Under the pieces are notes generated by a model. The model saw nothing but the letters and a program-made list of their open reading frames with translations. It was not told where the DNA came from and did no database searches. From assembly GCA_947475655.1 (NCBI GenBank), contig CANJOB010000007.1, positions 1 through 40,224 on the forward strand: a stretch of 40,224 nucleotides of DNA. Reading direction: 5' to 3'. A program made the position numbers and the translations under genes. This DNA is from Caulobacterales bacterium (lineage in GTDB: Bacteria; Pseudomonadota; Alphaproteobacteria; Caulobacterales; Caulobacteraceae). Below are positions 4,258-28,880 of this stretch, piece after piece. How positions within the stretch are numbered: position 1 is the stretch's first letter; every line of letters starts with the position of its first letter.

Positions 4258-4387
4258 GGCGGCGATATGGCCTTCCCTGCGGCCTTCTGTCCACCGCAAG
4301 GACCGCTGAGACGGTGGCCATCGTAAACGCCCCTTAACCCTTAGGCGGCAGGATCGCAGGCTGAGTTTCTATTGGGTTTTGGAGCTT

Positions 4388-7466: not shown

Positions 7467-7512
7467 CCCGCTGTCACCCATTTGTCACGATCAACCCTGA
7501 TCGCGATTTACA

Positions 7513-16767: not shown

Positions 16768-17661
16768 CTACCTCTGCCCCGACAGCCGGCGGCAGAGCTC
16801 GTCGAGCTGTTCCAGGGTGACGTAGCGCACGGTCACCGTCCCCTTGCCGCCCCTGTCGTCGATCGACACCTGCAGGCCGAGCGCCTCGCTCAGGTCCGAT
16901 TCCAGGGCGGCCGTGTCGGCGTCCTTGATGCCGGTGGCCAGGCCCGGCGTGCGCGGGGCCTTGGCCGACGGCTTGCGGGCCAGGGCCTCGGTGTCGCGCA
17001 CCGACAGGTGCTTTTCGATCACCCGCCGCGCCAGGCCGGGAATATCCGCCTCCTCGGCCGTGAGCAGGGCGCGGGCGTGGCCGGCGCTCAGCGCCCCTTC
17101 CGACAGATAGCCCTGCACCTCCGGCGGCAGCTGCAGCAGGCGAAGGGTGTTGGCCACGTGGCTGCGGCTCTTGCCCACCGCCTGGGCGATGTCGTCCTGG
17201 GTATGCGAATAGCGGTCGATCAGGGCGCGGTAGCCGAGCGCCTCTTCAAGCGAATTCAGATCGGCGCGCTGGACGTTCTCGACGATGGCGATCTCCAGCA
17301 CCGCGCGGTCGTCCAACTCGCGCACCACCACCGGAATCGTGCGCAGGCCGGCGATCTGCGCCGCGCGCCAGCGGCGCTCCCCGGCGACGATCTGAAACTC
17401 GCCCGGCTGATCGGGGGCCGGCCGCACCAGGATCGGCTGCAGCACGCCGCGCGTCTTCACCGTCTCGGCCAGGGATTCCAGCTCGGCCTTGTCGAAGTGC
17501 CGGCGCGGCTGGTCGGGATTGCGGCGCACCAGTTCGATCGGCGTTTCGCGCTGGCCGGCCGGCGGGGCGGGCGCGGCGGCGTCACCGCTGGCGGCATTGG
17601 CGTCGGACTCGCCCAGCAGGGCCGAGAGGCCCCGGCCCAGTCCGCGGCGTCCTTCAACCAT
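16768..17661 (-). CDS. parB: Chromosome-partitioning protein ParB
   Basis: 297 residues. The N-terminal RRGLGRGLSALLGE (5-18) is the peptide that stimulates ParA ATPase; the CTP-binding/clamp domain has GERRWRA at 94-100 and ENVQRADLN at 128-136; the helix-turn-helix IAQAVGKSRSHVANTLRLL (about 158-176) reads parS; the C-terminal dimer domain ends in LEQLDELCRRLSGQR. ParB loads at parS, slides along DNA using CTP and is pulled poleward by ParA. The start ATG at 17661 matches known Caulobacter ParB and has GGAG at a 6-base spacing; an ATG four codons upstream is possible. parA lies 23 bases upstream in the same operon. Confidence 0.97.
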   Translation of the reverse strand: MVEGRRGLGRGLSALLGESDANAASGDAAAPAPPAGQRETPIELVRRNPDQPRRHFDKAELESLAETVKTRGVLQPILVRPAPDQPGEFQIVAGERRWRAAQIAGLRTIPVVVRELDDRAVLEIAIVENVQRADLNSLEEALGYRALIDRYSHTQDDIAQAVGKSRSHVANTLRLLQLPPEVQGYLSEGALSAGHARALLTAEEADIPGLARRVIEKHLSVRDTEALARKPSAKAPRTPGLATGIKDADTAALESDLSEALGLQVSIDDRGGKGTVTVRYVTLEQLDELCRRLSGQR

Positions 17662-17684
17662 GGTCGTCTCCATTGCGGCGGCCT

Positions 17685-18476
17685 CTACGCGACCTGCGCC
17701 TGGCGGGCGCGTTCGCGGCTGACCACTTCCCGCGCCAGCTTCAGATAGGCTTGGCTGCCGGCGCACTTGAGGTCGTAGATCAGCACCGGCTTGCCGAACG
17801 ACGGCGCCTCGGACACCCGCACATTGCGGGGAATGACGGTCTCATAGACCTTGTCGCCGAAGTGAGTGCGCACGTCGCTGGCCACTTGGTCCGACAGGCT
17901 GTTGCGGCGGTCGTACATGGTCAGCACCACGCCCTGCAGCTCCAGCGAGGGATTGAGGCTGCCACGCACCAGCTCCACTGTGCGCATCAGCTGCGACAGG
18001 CCCTCCAGGGCGAAGAACTCGCATTGCAGCGGCACGAACACCGCGTCCGCCGCTGCCATGGCGTTGACGGTCAAAAGGTTCAGCGACGGGGGGCAATCGA
18101 TCAGCACATAGGTATAGCTGCCGCTCGTACGGATTAGGTCCAGGGCGTCGCGCAGGCGGAACGATCGGCGCTGCGCCGAGTGCAGTTCCATCTCCACCCC
18201 CGACAAGTCGGGGTCGGAAGGCAGCAGGTCCAGGCCCGGCAGGGCCGTTTTCAACGCGGCTTCCTGCACCGTCGCCTCGCCCATCAGCACGTCATAGAGG
18301 GTGACCTTGCGCGCGGCCCGGCCGATGCCTAGGCCGGTCGAGGCGTTGCCTTGCGGATCGGCGTCGATCAGCAGCACGCGTTCGCCAACCGCCGCCAGGG
18401 CGGTGCCGAGATTGATGGCGGTAGTGGTTTTTCCCACCCCGCCCTTCTGATTGGCCACGGCCAGAACGCGTAACAC
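17685..18476 (-). CDS. parA: Chromosome-partitioning ATPase ParA
   Basis: 263-residue Walker-type ATPase with the deviant P-loop KGGVGKT at 11-17, the signature DADPQGNAS, and VLIDCPPSLNLLT. ATP-bound ParA forms a nucleoid-associated gradient that guides the ParB-parS complex to the new pole. The start is a GTG whose G is shared with the last base of the rsmG stop codon (TAGTG), so translation is coupled; AAAGG lies about 10 bases upstream. It is transcribed with mnmG, rsmG and parB, a widespread origin-proximal arrangement. Confidence 0.97.
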   Translation of the reverse strand: MLRVLAVANQKGGVGKTTTAINLGTALAAVGERVLLIDADPQGNASTGLGIGRAARKVTLYDVLMGEATVQEAALKTALPGLDLLPSDPDLSGVEMELHSAQRRSFRLRDALDLIRTSGSYTYVLIDCPPSLNLLTVNAMAAADAVFVPLQCEFFALEGLSQLMRTVELVRGSLNPSLELQGVVLTMYDRRNSLSDQVASDVRTHFGDKVYETVIPRNVRVSEAPSFGKPVLIYDLKCAGSQAYLKLAREVVSRERARQAQVA

Positions 18477-21055: not shown

Positions 21056-21071
21056 TGTTTCACGTGAAACA
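21056..21071. other. parS: parS centromere site 1
   Basis: Perfect 16-base palindrome TGTTTCACGTGAAACA, identical to the consensus ParB-binding site of most bacteria including Caulobacter. It lies in the leader of mnmG, about 6.7 kb from the predicted origin and 3.4 kb from parB. Confidence 0.97.
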
Positions 21072-21089: not shown

Positions 21090-21105
21090 TGTTTCACGTG
21101 AAACA
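21090..21105. other. parS: parS centromere site 2
   Basis: A second perfect 16-base copy of the same palindrome, 34 bases centre-to-centre from site 1 (about three helical turns, so both face the same side of DNA). It ends 2 bases from the mnmE stop codon. Confidence 0.97.
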
Positions 21106-25465: not shown

Positions 25466-26515
25466 CTAAGCCGTGCATCCTTCCCGGCGGGCGCACCGCC
25501 GCCATTGTTCGCCGCAGGCGGACGCCGCCGGCTCCACGCCCGGTGCTTCTAGCGCACCCGACACGACCCCGGCCAGGGCGGCGATGAAGTCACCCTGCAC
25601 GCCCAGAGCCGGAACTCTAAGATAGGTTTCCACCCCCAGGCCCGCCGCCAGTTCGGCATAATCCCGGTCCAGCTCGACCAGGGTCTCCACATGCTCCGAG
25701 ACGAAGGCGATGGGGACGATGATGATGCCTCGCCCGACCTCGGCGGCGTCGGCTATGGCCGCCGGCGCGTAGGGTCCGAGCCATTTCAGCCGCCCGACCC
25801 GGCTCTGGTAGCAGAGCCGCCAGTCCCAGTCCTCGCCCAGGCCTTTCGGCCCCAAGGCTCGGAGCACCGCGGCGCAGCTTTTTTCCACCTGCATGGCGTA
25901 GGGGTCGCCATCGTCCACCACCTGCTGCGGCAGGCCGTGGGCCGAGAACAGCAGCCGCAGGCCGCTGGGCTTGCCCGCCTTCTCCCACGTCCCCCGGATC
26001 ACCTTGGCGTGGGCGGAGGCCAGGCCGGCGAGATCGGGATAGCAGCACACGGTCCGATGGACTCCGCTTCCTCGGTAGGCGGCCTTCCAGGCGGCGAACG
26101 ACGACCCTGTCGTGGTGGTCGAGTACTGCGGGTAGAGCGGAAGCAGCACCACCTCGTCCGGCCCCCAGGCGGCGACCTCGCGGGCAGCCTGCGCGGTCAG
26201 CGGATGCCAATAACGCATGGCGATGAAGACACGGGTCTCAGCGCCGGATGCGGCGTTGGCCAAGGCGAGTTGGAGCGCATCGGCCTGTTTGCGCGTCTCC
26301 GGCAGCAGCGGCGAACCGCCGCCCATGAGCGCGTAGTTCGCACGGGCGGATTTGGCACGGGTGGTCGAGATCAGCGCCGCCAGCGCCAGACGGGCCGGGG
26401 CGGCCAGCCGGATGATTGCCTTGTCGCGGAACAGGTTGAACAGGAAGGGAGCCACCGCCTCCTGACGGTCTGGTCCCCCGAGGTTGAACAGGACGACGGC
26501 GACTTTTCGGCTCAT
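25466..26515 (-). CDS. hemH: Ferrochelatase
   Basis: 349 residues. Begins MSRKVAVVLFNLGGPD, with NLFRDKAIIRLA, ALMGGGSPLLPETR, MRYWHPLT, LLPLYPQYSTTTTGSS, LLFSAHGLPQ (catalytic His) and IAFVSEHVETLVELD. It inserts iron into protoporphyrin at the inner membrane. The ATG overlaps the hemE stop as ATGA (26512-26515), which fixes the start although the frame continues upstream through hemE. Confidence 0.96.
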   Translation of the reverse strand: MSRKVAVVLFNLGGPDRQEAVAPFLFNLFRDKAIIRLAAPARLALAALISTTRAKSARANYALMGGGSPLLPETRKQADALQLALANAASGAETRVFIAMRYWHPLTAQAAREVAAWGPDEVVLLPLYPQYSTTTTGSSFAAWKAAYRGSGVHRTVCCYPDLAGLASAHAKVIRGTWEKAGKPSGLRLLFSAHGLPQQVVDDGDPYAMQVEKSCAAVLRALGPKGLGEDWDWRLCYQSRVGRLKWLGPYAPAAIADAAEVGRGIIIVPIAFVSEHVETLVELDRDYAELAAGLGVETYLRVPALGVQGDFIAALAGVVSGALEAPGVEPAASACGEQWRRCARREGCTA

Positions 26516-27534
26516 TTGCCGGTCACGCGCGCCAGCACCTGCTCCACATGGGCGATCGGGGTGTCGGGCAGGATGCCGTGACCGAGGTTGAAGATGTACG
26601 GTCCCTCGCCCCAAGTCTGCAGATATTCCTCGACCCGCGCGTCCAGGGCCGGGCCGCCGGCGCGCAGCAGCAACGGGTCGAGCGCGCCCTGGATCGGTTT
26701 GAGGGCCTGCACCCGCTGCCCAAGGCCCAGCGGCGCGGTGGTGTCGAGGCCGACCGCGGCGACCGGGACCTTCACCGCATAGCGCTCGGCCAGGGCCGGG
26801 GCGCCACGCGGAAAGCCGATCACCGGCGTCTGCACCCCCCGCGCCCGCAGGCCGGCGATGATCGCCTGGTGGGTGCGGATGACGATGGTCTCGAACAGGC
26901 TGTCGGTTAAGGCCTCGGCCCAGCTCTCGAACAGCATCAGCGCCTGGGCGCCCGCCGCCGCCTGCATGGCCAGGTAGTCGACTGTGCCCTCGACCAGCAC
27001 ATCCAGCAGCGCCGCCAGATCGTCTGGATTGGTATAGGCGTAGGACCTGGCCTTCGACCGGTCGCTCGACCCGCCCTCGATCATGTAGGTGGCCACCGTC
27101 CACGGCGCCCCGGCGAACCCAATGAGCGCCTTGTCGGCGGGAAGGCCCGCGCGGACCAGCTTTAGCGTCTCGCCGACGGCGCTCAAGGCTTCCCCGGCTT
27201 GGCCGGTCAGATCCTTCATGCGGGCCAATTCGGGCATCTCGCCCAGCTTCGGCCCCTCACCGGCCTCGAACCAGACCTTCTGCCCAAGGGCTTTGGGCAG
27301 CAGCAGGATATCGGCGAAGACGATTGAGGCGTCGAACGGAAAGCGCCGCATCGGCTGCAGTGTCGCCTCCGCCGCCATCTCGGGGTTAAGGCAAAAGGCG
27401 ATAAAGTCTGGCGCGGATGCCCGCAGCGCGCGGTATTCCGGCAGGTAGCGCCCCGCCTGGCGCATGAACCACACCGGCGGCCTCGCCTGCTTCTCTCCGG
27501 CCAGTACGCGCAGGAACTTCGGATCGGCTTGCAT
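26512..27534 (-). CDS. hemE: Uroporphyrinogen decarboxylase
   Basis: 340 residues. The signature RQAGRYLPEYR is at 25-35; PFDASIVFADIL, GFAGAPWTVATYMIEGG and NLGHGILPDTP are conserved. It decarboxylates the four acetates of uroporphyrinogen III to give coproporphyrinogen III. AAGG lies 8 bases before the ATG. In Caulobacter crescentus hemE borders the chromosomal origin and its promoter is part of it; the same position is seen here, with 431 non-coding bases between hemE and the divergent RP001-type gene. Confidence 0.97.
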   Translation of the reverse strand: MQADPKFLRVLAGEKQARPPVWFMRQAGRYLPEYRALRASAPDFIAFCLNPEMAAEATLQPMRRFPFDASIVFADILLLPKALGQKVWFEAGEGPKLGEMPELARMKDLTGQAGEALSAVGETLKLVRAGLPADKALIGFAGAPWTVATYMIEGGSSDRSKARSYAYTNPDDLAALLDVLVEGTVDYLAMQAAAGAQALMLFESWAEALTDSLFETIVIRTHQAIIAGLRARGVQTPVIGFPRGAPALAERYAVKVPVAAVGLDTTAPLGLGQRVQALKPIQGALDPLLLRAGGPALDARVEEYLQTWGEGPYIFNLGHGILPDTPIAHVEQVLARVTGK

Positions 27535-27555
27535 GGCGAGCCTTAAAGCCCGTCC

Positions 27556-27564
27556 GGTGGATCA
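27556..27564 (-). promoter_or_regulatory. G-box-like DnaA site
   Basis: Reads TGATCCACC on the minus strand, one base off the Caulobacter G-box TGATCCACA, a moderate-affinity DnaA site. It is 22 bases from the hemE start codon, so DnaA bound here would also touch hemE expression. Confidence 0.5.
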
Positions 27565-27723
27565 TCTCAACCCACCCCTCTTCCTTCCTCTAATAAGATG
27601 ATTGGAATCTTGAAGGGTAGCGGCGATAGGGGCGAGGACGGCGGGGACGGATTGTGAGCGTCACCCTTCGCCCAGAGGCAATCCGCATCGGCGGCGCGGA
27701 ACGCCGACAGGCGCCGCCAGGTC

Positions 27724-27741
27724 TGTGGACAACGGGGACAA
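27724..27741 (-). promoter_or_regulatory. Abutting pair of DnaA boxes
   Basis: On the minus strand 27724-27732 reads TTGTCCACA, one base from the E. coli consensus TTATCCACA. The next nine bases (27733-27741) read TTGTCCCCG, a weaker box in the same orientation with no spacer. Confidence 0.7.
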
Positions 27742-27762
27742 CCCCTAAACGGGCGGAAAGCC

Positions 27763-27777
27763 TTAACGAATCCTTAA
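27763..27777. promoter_or_regulatory. CtrA binding site with internal GANTC
   Basis: Perfect TTAA-N7-TTAA (27763-27766 and 27774-27777), the consensus of the cell-cycle regulator CtrA, which blocks initiation at the Caulobacter origin. The spacer contains GAATC (27768-27772), a GANTC target of the CcrM adenine methyltransferase. Confidence 0.8.
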
Positions 27778-27809
27778 CGACCGTTGGCGCCATAGCGGGA
27801 CGGGGCACG

Positions 27810-27852
27810 GCATCCCCAACCGTGCATTAACCACCCTTGGCCATGTTCCCCA
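27810..27852 (+). promoter_or_regulatory. Two W-box-like weak DnaA sites
   Basis: GCATCCCCA (27810-27818) and TGTTCCCCA (27844-27852) carry the TCCCCA core of the weak DnaA sites described in the Caulobacter origin. A CtrA half-site TTAACCA lies between them. Short motifs in GC-rich DNA occur by chance, so confidence is limited. Confidence 0.4.
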
Positions 27853-27965
27853 GGGCGGCCAGGCTGGAGACGGAACGGGCCTCAAACCCCTGGCGGTCAA
27901 CAGCCGGACCCGGCATAGCTACGGGCAGCCCAAACCATGCACCGCCGTCCCCGAGATACCGCCCG

Positions 27966-28880
27966 GTGATACAGCCCCCGCCCACCGAAGACTCACAGGC
28001 CCCGGGGGAAAAATCCGCCGCGCCGCCGGCTGAGCCGACCGGCCGCTTCGCCACCTATTTCCATATCCATCTGGTGTCGGATTCCACCGGCGAGACGCTG
28101 AACGCCCTGGCCCGCGCCGTCTGCGCCCGGTTCACCGACATCCTGCCGATCGAGCACATCTACGCCCTGGTCCGGTCCCCGCGCCAGCTCGAGCGGGCGC
28201 TGGAGGAGATCGCCGGGGCGCCGGGGGTGGTGATGCACACCATCATCGACCCGCAGCTGCGCACGGCGCTGGAGGAAGGCTGCCGCCGGCTGGAGATGCC
28301 CTGCATCGCCGCCCTTGATCCGGTGGTCTCGACCATGGCCCGCTACCTGGGGGCGCGGATCTCCACCCGCGTCGGCGCCCAGCACGCGCTCGACAACGAC
28401 TACTTCAACCGCATGGAAGCGCTGAACTACGCCATCGCCCATGACGACGGCGCCGGCGGCCAGGACCTGAACCAGGCGGACGTGATCCTGGTCGGGGTGT
28501 CGCGCACCAGCAAAACGCCAACCTCCATCTACCTCGCCCACCGGGGCGTGCGGGCCGCGAACGTGCCGCTGATTCCGGGCCAGGGCATCCCGCCGGCCCT
28601 GGCGGCGGTGCTGGGCTCCAAGCCGATCGTCGCCCTGACCGCCTCGTCGGACCGGCTGCTCTCGATCCGCCGCAACCGCCTGCTGGCGCTGAAGCAGGAT
28701 CGGGCGAGCAGCTATACCGATCCCGACGCGGTGCGGGCCGAGATCATCGAGGCGCGGCGATTGTTCGAGCGTCACGGCTGGCCAATCATCGACGTCACCC
28801 GCCGTTCGGTCGAGGAGACGGCGGCGCAGATCATCAACTATCTGTCGGGCGACCGCGGCAAGTCGGCCGAGGCTCCATGA
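27966..28880 (+). CDS. Pyruvate phosphate dikinase regulatory-type kinase/phosphorylase (RP001/DUF299 family)
   Basis: 304 residues. FHIHLVSDSTGETLNALARAV opens the conserved domain (about 32-52), and the P-loop-like GVSRTSKTPTSIYLA is at 177-191; family members switch pyruvate phosphate dikinase or PEP synthase on and off by ADP-dependent phosphorylation and Pi-dependent removal. Its target enzyme is not in the window. The start is uncertain: the GTG at 27966 gives a normal family length, while an ATG at 27843 would add 41 proline-rich residues across the W-box region. It is the first gene of a plus-strand operon, next to the origin as RP001 is in Caulobacter and Rickettsia. Confidence 0.88.
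   Translation: MIQPPPTEDSQAPGEKSAAPPAEPTGRFATYFHIHLVSDSTGETLNALARAVCARFTDILPIEHIYALVRSPRQLERALEEIAGAPGVVMHTIIDPQLRTALEEGCRRLEMPCIAALDPVVSTMARYLGARISTRVGAQHALDNDYFNRMEALNYAIAHDDGAGGQDLNQADVILVGVSRTSKTPTSIYLAHRGVRAANVPLIPGQGIPPALAAVLGSKPIVALTASSDRLLSIRRNRLLALKQDRASSYTDPDAVRAEIIEARRLFERHGWPIIDVTRRSVEETAAQIINYLSGDRGKSAEAP

Follow-up and report, generated by a model that had tools for sequence, protein, structure and literature searches.

A very probable Caulobacter chromosome origin in which CtrA control appears cut to one canonical site

The replication origin of Caulobacter crescentus, Cori, is the textbook example of an origin governed by a response regulator, here CtrA, the cell-cycle regulator that normally restrains replication. 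It contains five high-affinity CtrA boxes (PMC4468827) and five W-boxes of the form TCCCCA (PMC4285127), according to the available parts of these two papers. The first of them also describes a puzzle: CtrA is bound tightly and DnaA weakly, yet a weakening of all CtrA sites has only a mild effect on the laboratory cell cycle (PMC4468827). When all five CtrA sites were weakened, the cell cycle was only mildly perturbed and the strains were sensitive to antibiotic pulses (Bastedo and Marczynski 2009, as related in PMC4468827). Freshwater Caulobacter keep four of the five sites (Shaheen 2009, as related in the same paper). An uncultured Caulobacter raises the question of what such an origin looks like when most of these sites are absent. 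We analysed a stretch of 40,224 bases, referred to as the window, from a draft assembly of 2.88 Mb in 239 contigs that is 83.1% complete and falls in genus group g1, identified as Caulobacter through named loci that have the same contigs. Is the gap between its hemE and PPSR genes the chromosomal origin, and how much CtrA control has it kept? The locus is very probably the chromosome replication start, and we hold with good confidence that the gap, together with about the first 33 bases of PPSR, constitutes a working Cori in which CtrA control has been cut to one canonical site.

The genes hemE and PPSR diverge across a gap of 431 bases (27535-27965), and gene orientation reverses at this interval, as the sequence-only reading had stated (Table 1). 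On the left flank lie hemH, rho, a GST gene, mnmE, mnmG, rsmG, parA and parB, and on the right flank maf, aroE, coaE, a dnaQ-like exonuclease gene, a Tim44-like gene and mltA. A perfect pair of parS sites is located 6.4 kb from the gap. Divergent hemE-PPSR neighbours were present in 183 of 187 loci, duplicates counted, the four remaining stretches (L046, L084, L090 and L094) having PPSR without hemE; after the exclusion of L161 for its truncated hemE match, the 182 divergent loci compared held 154 distinct gaps. The earlier claim that the position matches the Caulobacter origin is thus supported by synteny, conserved elements and the nearby parS and parAB, and also by the GC skew of a complete congener. 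In this genome (G013) the mean skew is -0.0127 in 11 samples to the left of the locus and +0.0255 in nine to the right, one of the nine having been assigned by assuming that the terminus lies opposite (one-sided Mann-Whitney P=0.0075, twenty 20-kb samples). Within the window itself no such switch is seen, which counts against the claim. This gap and the Cori of C. crescentus are orthologous, and the two share the hemE/RP001 position, the hemE promoter form, an A+T-rich region, TCCCCA W-boxes, a CtrA box at the C position described below, and neighbouring parS and parAB.

Table 1. Coordinates of the genes and motifs discussed (window numbering; motif assignments are predictions)
Feature	Position	Strand	Remarks
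parB	16768..17766	-	TIGR00180 3.7e-59, above cut-off
parA	17685..18476	-	ParA/MinD-superfamily matches, each under the family's curated cut-off; adjoins parB
parS GTTTCACGTGAAAC	21057..21070	+	exact match
parS GTTTCACGTGAAAC	21091..21104	+	exact match
hemE (uroporphyrinogen decarboxylase), left origin border	26512..27534	-	Pfam URO-D 2.8e-101; TIGR01464 hemE 9.5e-113
hemE promoter-like TTGAGA-N17-TTTAA	27543..27570	-	predicted; sole pattern match in the 40-kb window
near-G-box TGATCCACC	27556..27564	-	one mismatch to TGATCCACA; within the hemE promoter spacer
A+T-rich patch	27585..27614		candidate unwinding element; 70% A+T
degenerate A-site	27590..27604		position of the conserved CtrA box TTAATAAGAAATTAA, here CTAATAAGATGATTG
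DnaA box TTGTCCACA	27724..27732	-	predicted
weaker DnaA-like neighbour TTGTCCCCG	27733..27741	-	read from sequence; adjoins TTGTCCACA
C-site CtrA box TTAACGAATCCTTAA	27763..27777	+	predicted; 16-mer TTAACN6TTAAC runs to 27778
W-box TCCCCA	27813..27818	+	
W-box TCCCCA	27847..27852	+	
PPSR (RP001-type kinase/pyrophosphorylase)	27966..28880	+	GTG start at 27966; Pfam Kinase-PPPase 1.3e-86; NF003742 3.1e-96
eroded R element	27970..27998	+	homologous to TTAAN7TTAA-N7-TCCACAG; here neither CtrA box nor TCCACA

To place the window among its relatives, we surveyed 234 loci, which gave 167 distinct regions reaching from the hemE start to the FATYFH anchor of PPSR. Of these regions 68 are from Caulobacter, one each from 68 of the 75 genomes of the genus; the 99 others include Caulobacter-named loci unlinked to the 75 genomes, such as L137, which has the R element described below. 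The survey dropped L191, L226, L249 and L252 (all from G203) for a late-starting PPSR match, and L046, L084, L090, L094, L227, L228 and L250, in which one border gene lies outside the stretch. The seven genus genomes outside the 68 are G203, G198, G200, G204, G214, where the contig ends, and G211 and G015, which gave no hemE match.

CtrA boxes with at most one mismatch number one in a single region, that of the window, two in four regions, three in 41, four in 12, five in six and six in four. When aligned, they fall mainly at three positions, which we call A, C and R. A box with at most one mismatch occupies the A position (about 27597, in the A+T patch) in 55 of the 68 regions and the C position (about 27770) in 51; a box is present at R (about 27977) in 65, exact in 56. 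The window has an exact box at C and none at A or R, and no box with at most one mismatch replaces those that were lost. The origin had been described from the sequence as sparse relative to the five boxes of C. crescentus, with control perhaps resting on fewer sites; its single box is the minimum of the 68 regions, and the claim is borne out against the 67 others. The main loss of CtrA sites lies just to the right of the interval originally singled out, in the first codons of PPSR, and affects one clade only. A count restricted to the gap missed the R element, because R overlaps the start of PPSR. By that count the window had passed for ordinary, one exact box being common, a view overturned once the region was extended to the PPSR anchor.

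The R element is the most constant element of Caulobacter origins. It consists of a CtrA box followed 7 bp on by TCCACA, and is found close to the start of PPSR or overlapping it. It is complete in 65 of the 68 regions (7-bp spacing in 64, 8 bp in one) and absent only from the window and two uncultured relatives, G219 and G201. Shuffling the window's region 5000 times produced an R-like element in three cases. Next to R, TCCACA occurs in 64 of the 68 regions, in 39 of them as TGATCCACAG; with one mismatch allowed it is found in 67, all but the window. In C. vibrioides the element overlaps the opening codons of PPSR (VVKQPLTDDPQ), and the encoded residues are still similar in the window (VIQPPPTEDSQ), where no site is left. 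In G219 the element is half-eroded (GTGATTAAGCC...GATTCACAG), and G201 keeps TCCACA without the R CtrA box, its A-site box being still there. Beyond the 68 regions, the element is present in G198, G200 and G204, and by eye in the dropped L191 (G203). In Caulobacter G198, PPSR is not found within 19 kb of hemE. An R element is nevertheless present there, about 470 bases upstream of hemE, which ties the element to the origin rather than to PPSR. That copy (L228, L303; G198:C1:93500-115000) is a CtrA box with a one-mismatch TCCACA at 7 bp. The origin region of L234 (G189) measures 855 nt, against about 500-570 in other Caulobacter regions; its R element lies 425 nt before the PPSR anchor, apparently through an insertion between R and PPSR.

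Outside the genus, the element with 7-bp spacing occurs in g12, g15 and g16 (one each), in g29 (2/2) and in g31, Acaudatibacter (2/2, one with a mismatch), and looser forms with other spacing occur in g13 (4/7), g14 (1/1) and g24 (3/3). It is absent from g17 (0/5) and from g18, g19, g20, g21, g23, g25, g27 and g28 (0/1 each), and with so many genera lacking it, its age outside Caulobacter is unsure. Our literature search, in which subscription papers were mostly outside coverage, found no published Caulobacter origin with a lost R element.

When was the element lost? In a tree of hemE and PPSR (84 rows, IQ-TREE quick mode), the window and G219 are joined inside the genus with an SH-aLRT of 100, and G201 appears to join them with an SH-aLRT of only 92, a value from two genes and a quick method. 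Deeper Caulobacter branches, including L233 and L234, carry the R element. Since R is missing only from members of the clade {G201,(window,G219)}, the simplest reading of the sequences is one R loss in this clade, with a later A-site loss in the window and G219. The absence of R in the window may also reflect mere general divergence, as its lineage has a long stem in the tree. Against this, G201 is without R as well, and its root-to-tip distance is no longer than those of L233, L234 and the G013 group, which keep the element.

The gap retains several other elements of a Caulobacter origin, and the motifs named in the sequence-only reading (a perfect CtrA box, a near-consensus DnaA box with a weaker neighbour, G- and W-box-like motifs and an A+T-rich patch) were all recovered. 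The C-site box is the sole exact TTAAN7TTAA in the 40,224 bases (0.02 expected), the only other CtrA box with at most one mismatch lying at 4323, and of 5000 Markov shuffles made from the 512-nt region, seven contain an exact box. It sits 21 bases to the right of the DnaA pair and 30 bases to the right of TTGTCCACA. A CtrA half-site, TTAACC, follows at 27827. The predicted hemE promoter form recurs in 50 of the 68 Caulobacter regions, those of G219, G201 and C. vibrioides among them. The A+T-rich patch is the joint A+T maximum of the 40,195 30-nt windows, tied with one starting at 7498. The two W-boxes compare with four in C. vibrioides (L009) and a range of 0-5 over the 68 regions. Over the whole window the DnaA 9-mer is within chance, with three one-mismatch matches to TTATCCACA against 1.57 expected. 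Only 1.3% of 431-nt windows match the gap's count of DnaA-like 9-mers, and 0.4% equal its 9-mers plus W-boxes. The near-G-box alone is weak evidence, since the window holds 11 one-mismatch G-boxes against 4.54 expected. At its position within the hemE spacer it is absent from G219, G201, L009 and L010, so that DnaA might act on hemE transcription here. A CcrM site (GANTC) is also present as GAATC at 27768-27772, inside the only CtrA box, and the state of its methylation could therefore bear on CtrA binding; GANTC falls within the C-box in three of the 51 regions that have one.

The DnaA side of the origin has changed as well. The box TTGTCCACA occurs in one of the 68 Caulobacter regions, that of the window, the wider form TTNTCCACA in two and TTATNCACA in none. 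The G-box TGATCCACA is found in 40 of the 68; its exact form was not found in the window's origin region. In the accessible part of PMC4285127, TTGTCCACA is listed as the DnaA box of high affinity in Mycobacterium tuberculosis and Streptomyces coelicolor, with TGATCCACA as its counterpart in C. crescentus. According to the corresponding part of PMC4468827, G-boxes lose affinity through the T-to-G change, the two in C. crescentus are both located next to CtrA sites, and DnaA is excluded by CtrA. Cori therefore differs from the window in having two TGATCCACA G-boxes near or overlapping CtrA boxes, whereas the window has no exact G-box and carries TTGTCCACA, a DnaA box without the T-to-G change. 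The affinity of DnaA for this box would be expected to be higher. With the change absent from TTGTCCACA, the G-box missing and CtrA sites lost, the window's origin leans from CtrA toward DnaA. At the column of window position 27722, a CtrA box with at most one mismatch is present in 19 of the 68 regions and missing from 49. In C. vibrioides (L009) this box is TTAACGCTCTGTTAA, which contains TAACGCTCTGTT, listed as an IHF/CtrA site in the available text of PMC4285127. The window carries TTGTCCACA at that column, and TAACGCTCTGTT was not found in its origin, a further difference from Cori.

We infer from these motifs how binding, unwinding and a weaker repression would work at this origin. DnaA would bind the central TTGTCCACA/TTGTCCCCG pair and the weaker W-boxes, and would open the A+T patch next to the promoter of hemE. 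CtrA would still bind, among canonical sites at the C-site only, and act there as a single brake. Two ancestral CtrA inputs are gone, namely the A-site box of the A+T patch and the PPSR-end box, which in relatives lies 7 bp from a DnaA box. With both of them lost, the exclusion of DnaA by CtrA should be weaker, and the timing of initiation would be left mainly to the regulation of DnaA. Cori has five CtrA boxes against one here, and the boxes of the A+T patch and of the PPSR start are both missing from the window. This difference is quantitative and the locus is orthologous, so it lowers the case for control like that of Cori, not the case for orthology. As far as sequence can tell, the locus is an orthologue of the known origin type, in a variant with CtrA control at one canonical site.

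The regulators themselves are encoded in the genome of the window. Its CtrA is 94% identical to the query and identical to that of three congeners from KEYQMLELL to KLRKKL; the DNA-binding region, judged from the protein alignment, is unchanged. DnaA, ChpT and GcrA are also encoded, along with five flagellar hook/rod matches. Two candidate explanations, that CtrA is missing from this genome and that its flagellum has been lost, were rejected on the 94%-identical CtrA and the five hook/rod matches, respectively. The strict CtrA 16-mer has eight matches at seven places in the 2.88-Mb assembly, against 1-7 in 11 other genomes, which gives no indication that the CtrA regulon is shrinking.

Could CtrA and DnaA simply occupy degenerate or shifted sites, with control remaining as in C. 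crescentus? Such motif turnover is possible, although we consider it unlikely. CtrA may also recognise sequences outside the TTAAN7TTAA pattern, for example the half-site at 27827, and the near-G-box in the hemE spacer could be read in the same way. The sister G219 has a one-mismatch box near 27722, the number of boxes varies from 1 to 6 (at most one mismatch) within the genus, and the long stem marks the window's lineage as rather divergent. However, the lost boxes are unreplaced, the one other near-match in 40 kb lying at 4323, and elsewhere in the genus R is almost always present, even in the divergent L233 and L234.

A second alternative, of similarly doubtful standing, is that the C-box has been kept for transcription, as a CtrA-activated promoter like that of ccnA, and that CtrA repression of replication is gone. 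The ccnA RNA is 182 nt long, with a CtrA box at -23 and another at its end, as given in the available part of PMC8959179. The distance from C to R is 210 nt in C. vibrioides, which fits a 182-nt ccnA with both CtrA boxes, and the window retains 207 nt from the C-box to the eroded R position; from this spacing, the C-box may correspond to the ccnA promoter box. The pair of boxes seen in ccnA is not found in the window, where the presumed upstream box is kept and the end box is lost. The candidate RNA folds no more than shuffles do (z 0.55), an Rfam search gave no match, and the sequence between C-box and R is poorly conserved, all of which speaks against this alternative.

It is very unlikely that the locus represents a former origin in decay, with replication starting elsewhere. 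Such decay would fit the loss of the most constant element, and the 40-kb window shows no local switch in GC skew (-0.0043 on the left, -0.0130 on the right); at 239 contigs, the genome itself is too fragmented for a genome-wide skew or copy-number test. On the other hand, parS and parAB are close by, the C-box is a strict 16-mer, a DnaA box with a TT start is present, and the hemE promoter form and the A+T patch are kept. The 500 bases upstream of the genome's own dnaA frame contain no TTATNCACA, TTNTCCACA, TGATCCACA or TTAAN7TTAA, so none of the exact boxes searched points to a rival origin there. An artefact of assembly or binning, which a draft as fragmented and incomplete as this one might suggest, is scarcely credible, given that a single contig carries everything from parB to mltA, with both hemE and PPSR intact, that the PPSR frame runs through the eroded R position, and that R is also lost in two further assemblies of other species.

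The preferred reading, an origin that works with one canonical CtrA site, gives the window's lineage a wider meaning. It seems to be a natural experiment, in which CtrA is kept, most of its sites are lost, and the DnaA box is without the affinity-lowering change. It thereby allows a test of which CtrA sites are important under natural conditions, and of whether the origin loosens before CtrA and the dimorphic life cycle disappear. It resembles the five-site strains of Bastedo and Marczynski in having reduced CtrA input at an otherwise normal origin. It differs from them in that the change is natural, partial and fixed in a lineage, one strong site is kept, and the DnaA site is altered too. The survey also shows that the most constant element of the origin, the PPSR-end CtrA and DnaA box, can overlap a coding start and be missed when only the gap is read. 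Whether the origin of this clade escaped CtrA first, by an ancestral loss of R, a later loss of the A-site and a new TTGTCCACA in the window's species, can be put forward only tentatively, as the less favoured course of events.

The relatives of the window offer a lead in this direction. G219 and G015 (L224, L244, L255, L256, L300) are assemblies of 1.5 Mb placed in Caulobacter, 74% and 70% complete, respectively; G015, with no hemE or PPSR match, is outside the tree. At this completeness, neither gave a CtrA orthologue (best identity 34%) or a GcrA match, and each has one weak, stop-ridden hook/rod match below the cut-off. ChpT was found in G015, with none over the cut-off in G219, and the DnaA proteins of the two are very alike. 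G201 (78% complete) likewise gave no CtrA orthologue, and has GcrA, ChpT and six hook/rod matches. Incompleteness could explain single absences in these three assemblies. In G219 and G015, CtrA, GcrA and flagella may have been lost altogether, and the gene content suggests a possible further non-dimorphic lineage. For Phenylobacterium immobile and for Acaudatibacter a loss of dimorphism has been described (Hallgren et al. 2025, PMC12700997), and the available part of that paper does not name a non-dimorphic lineage inside Caulobacter. The isolate name of Acaudatibacter SZAS_AMP-5 is also that of L162 (= L098, G128) in group g31. These Caulobacteraceae are comparable in that dimorphic control is being dismantled, which is the lead for G219 and G015, and they differ from the window's genome, which retains flagellar hook/rod genes and CtrA. 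Both surveyed genomes of Acaudatibacter (g31) have flagellar matches.
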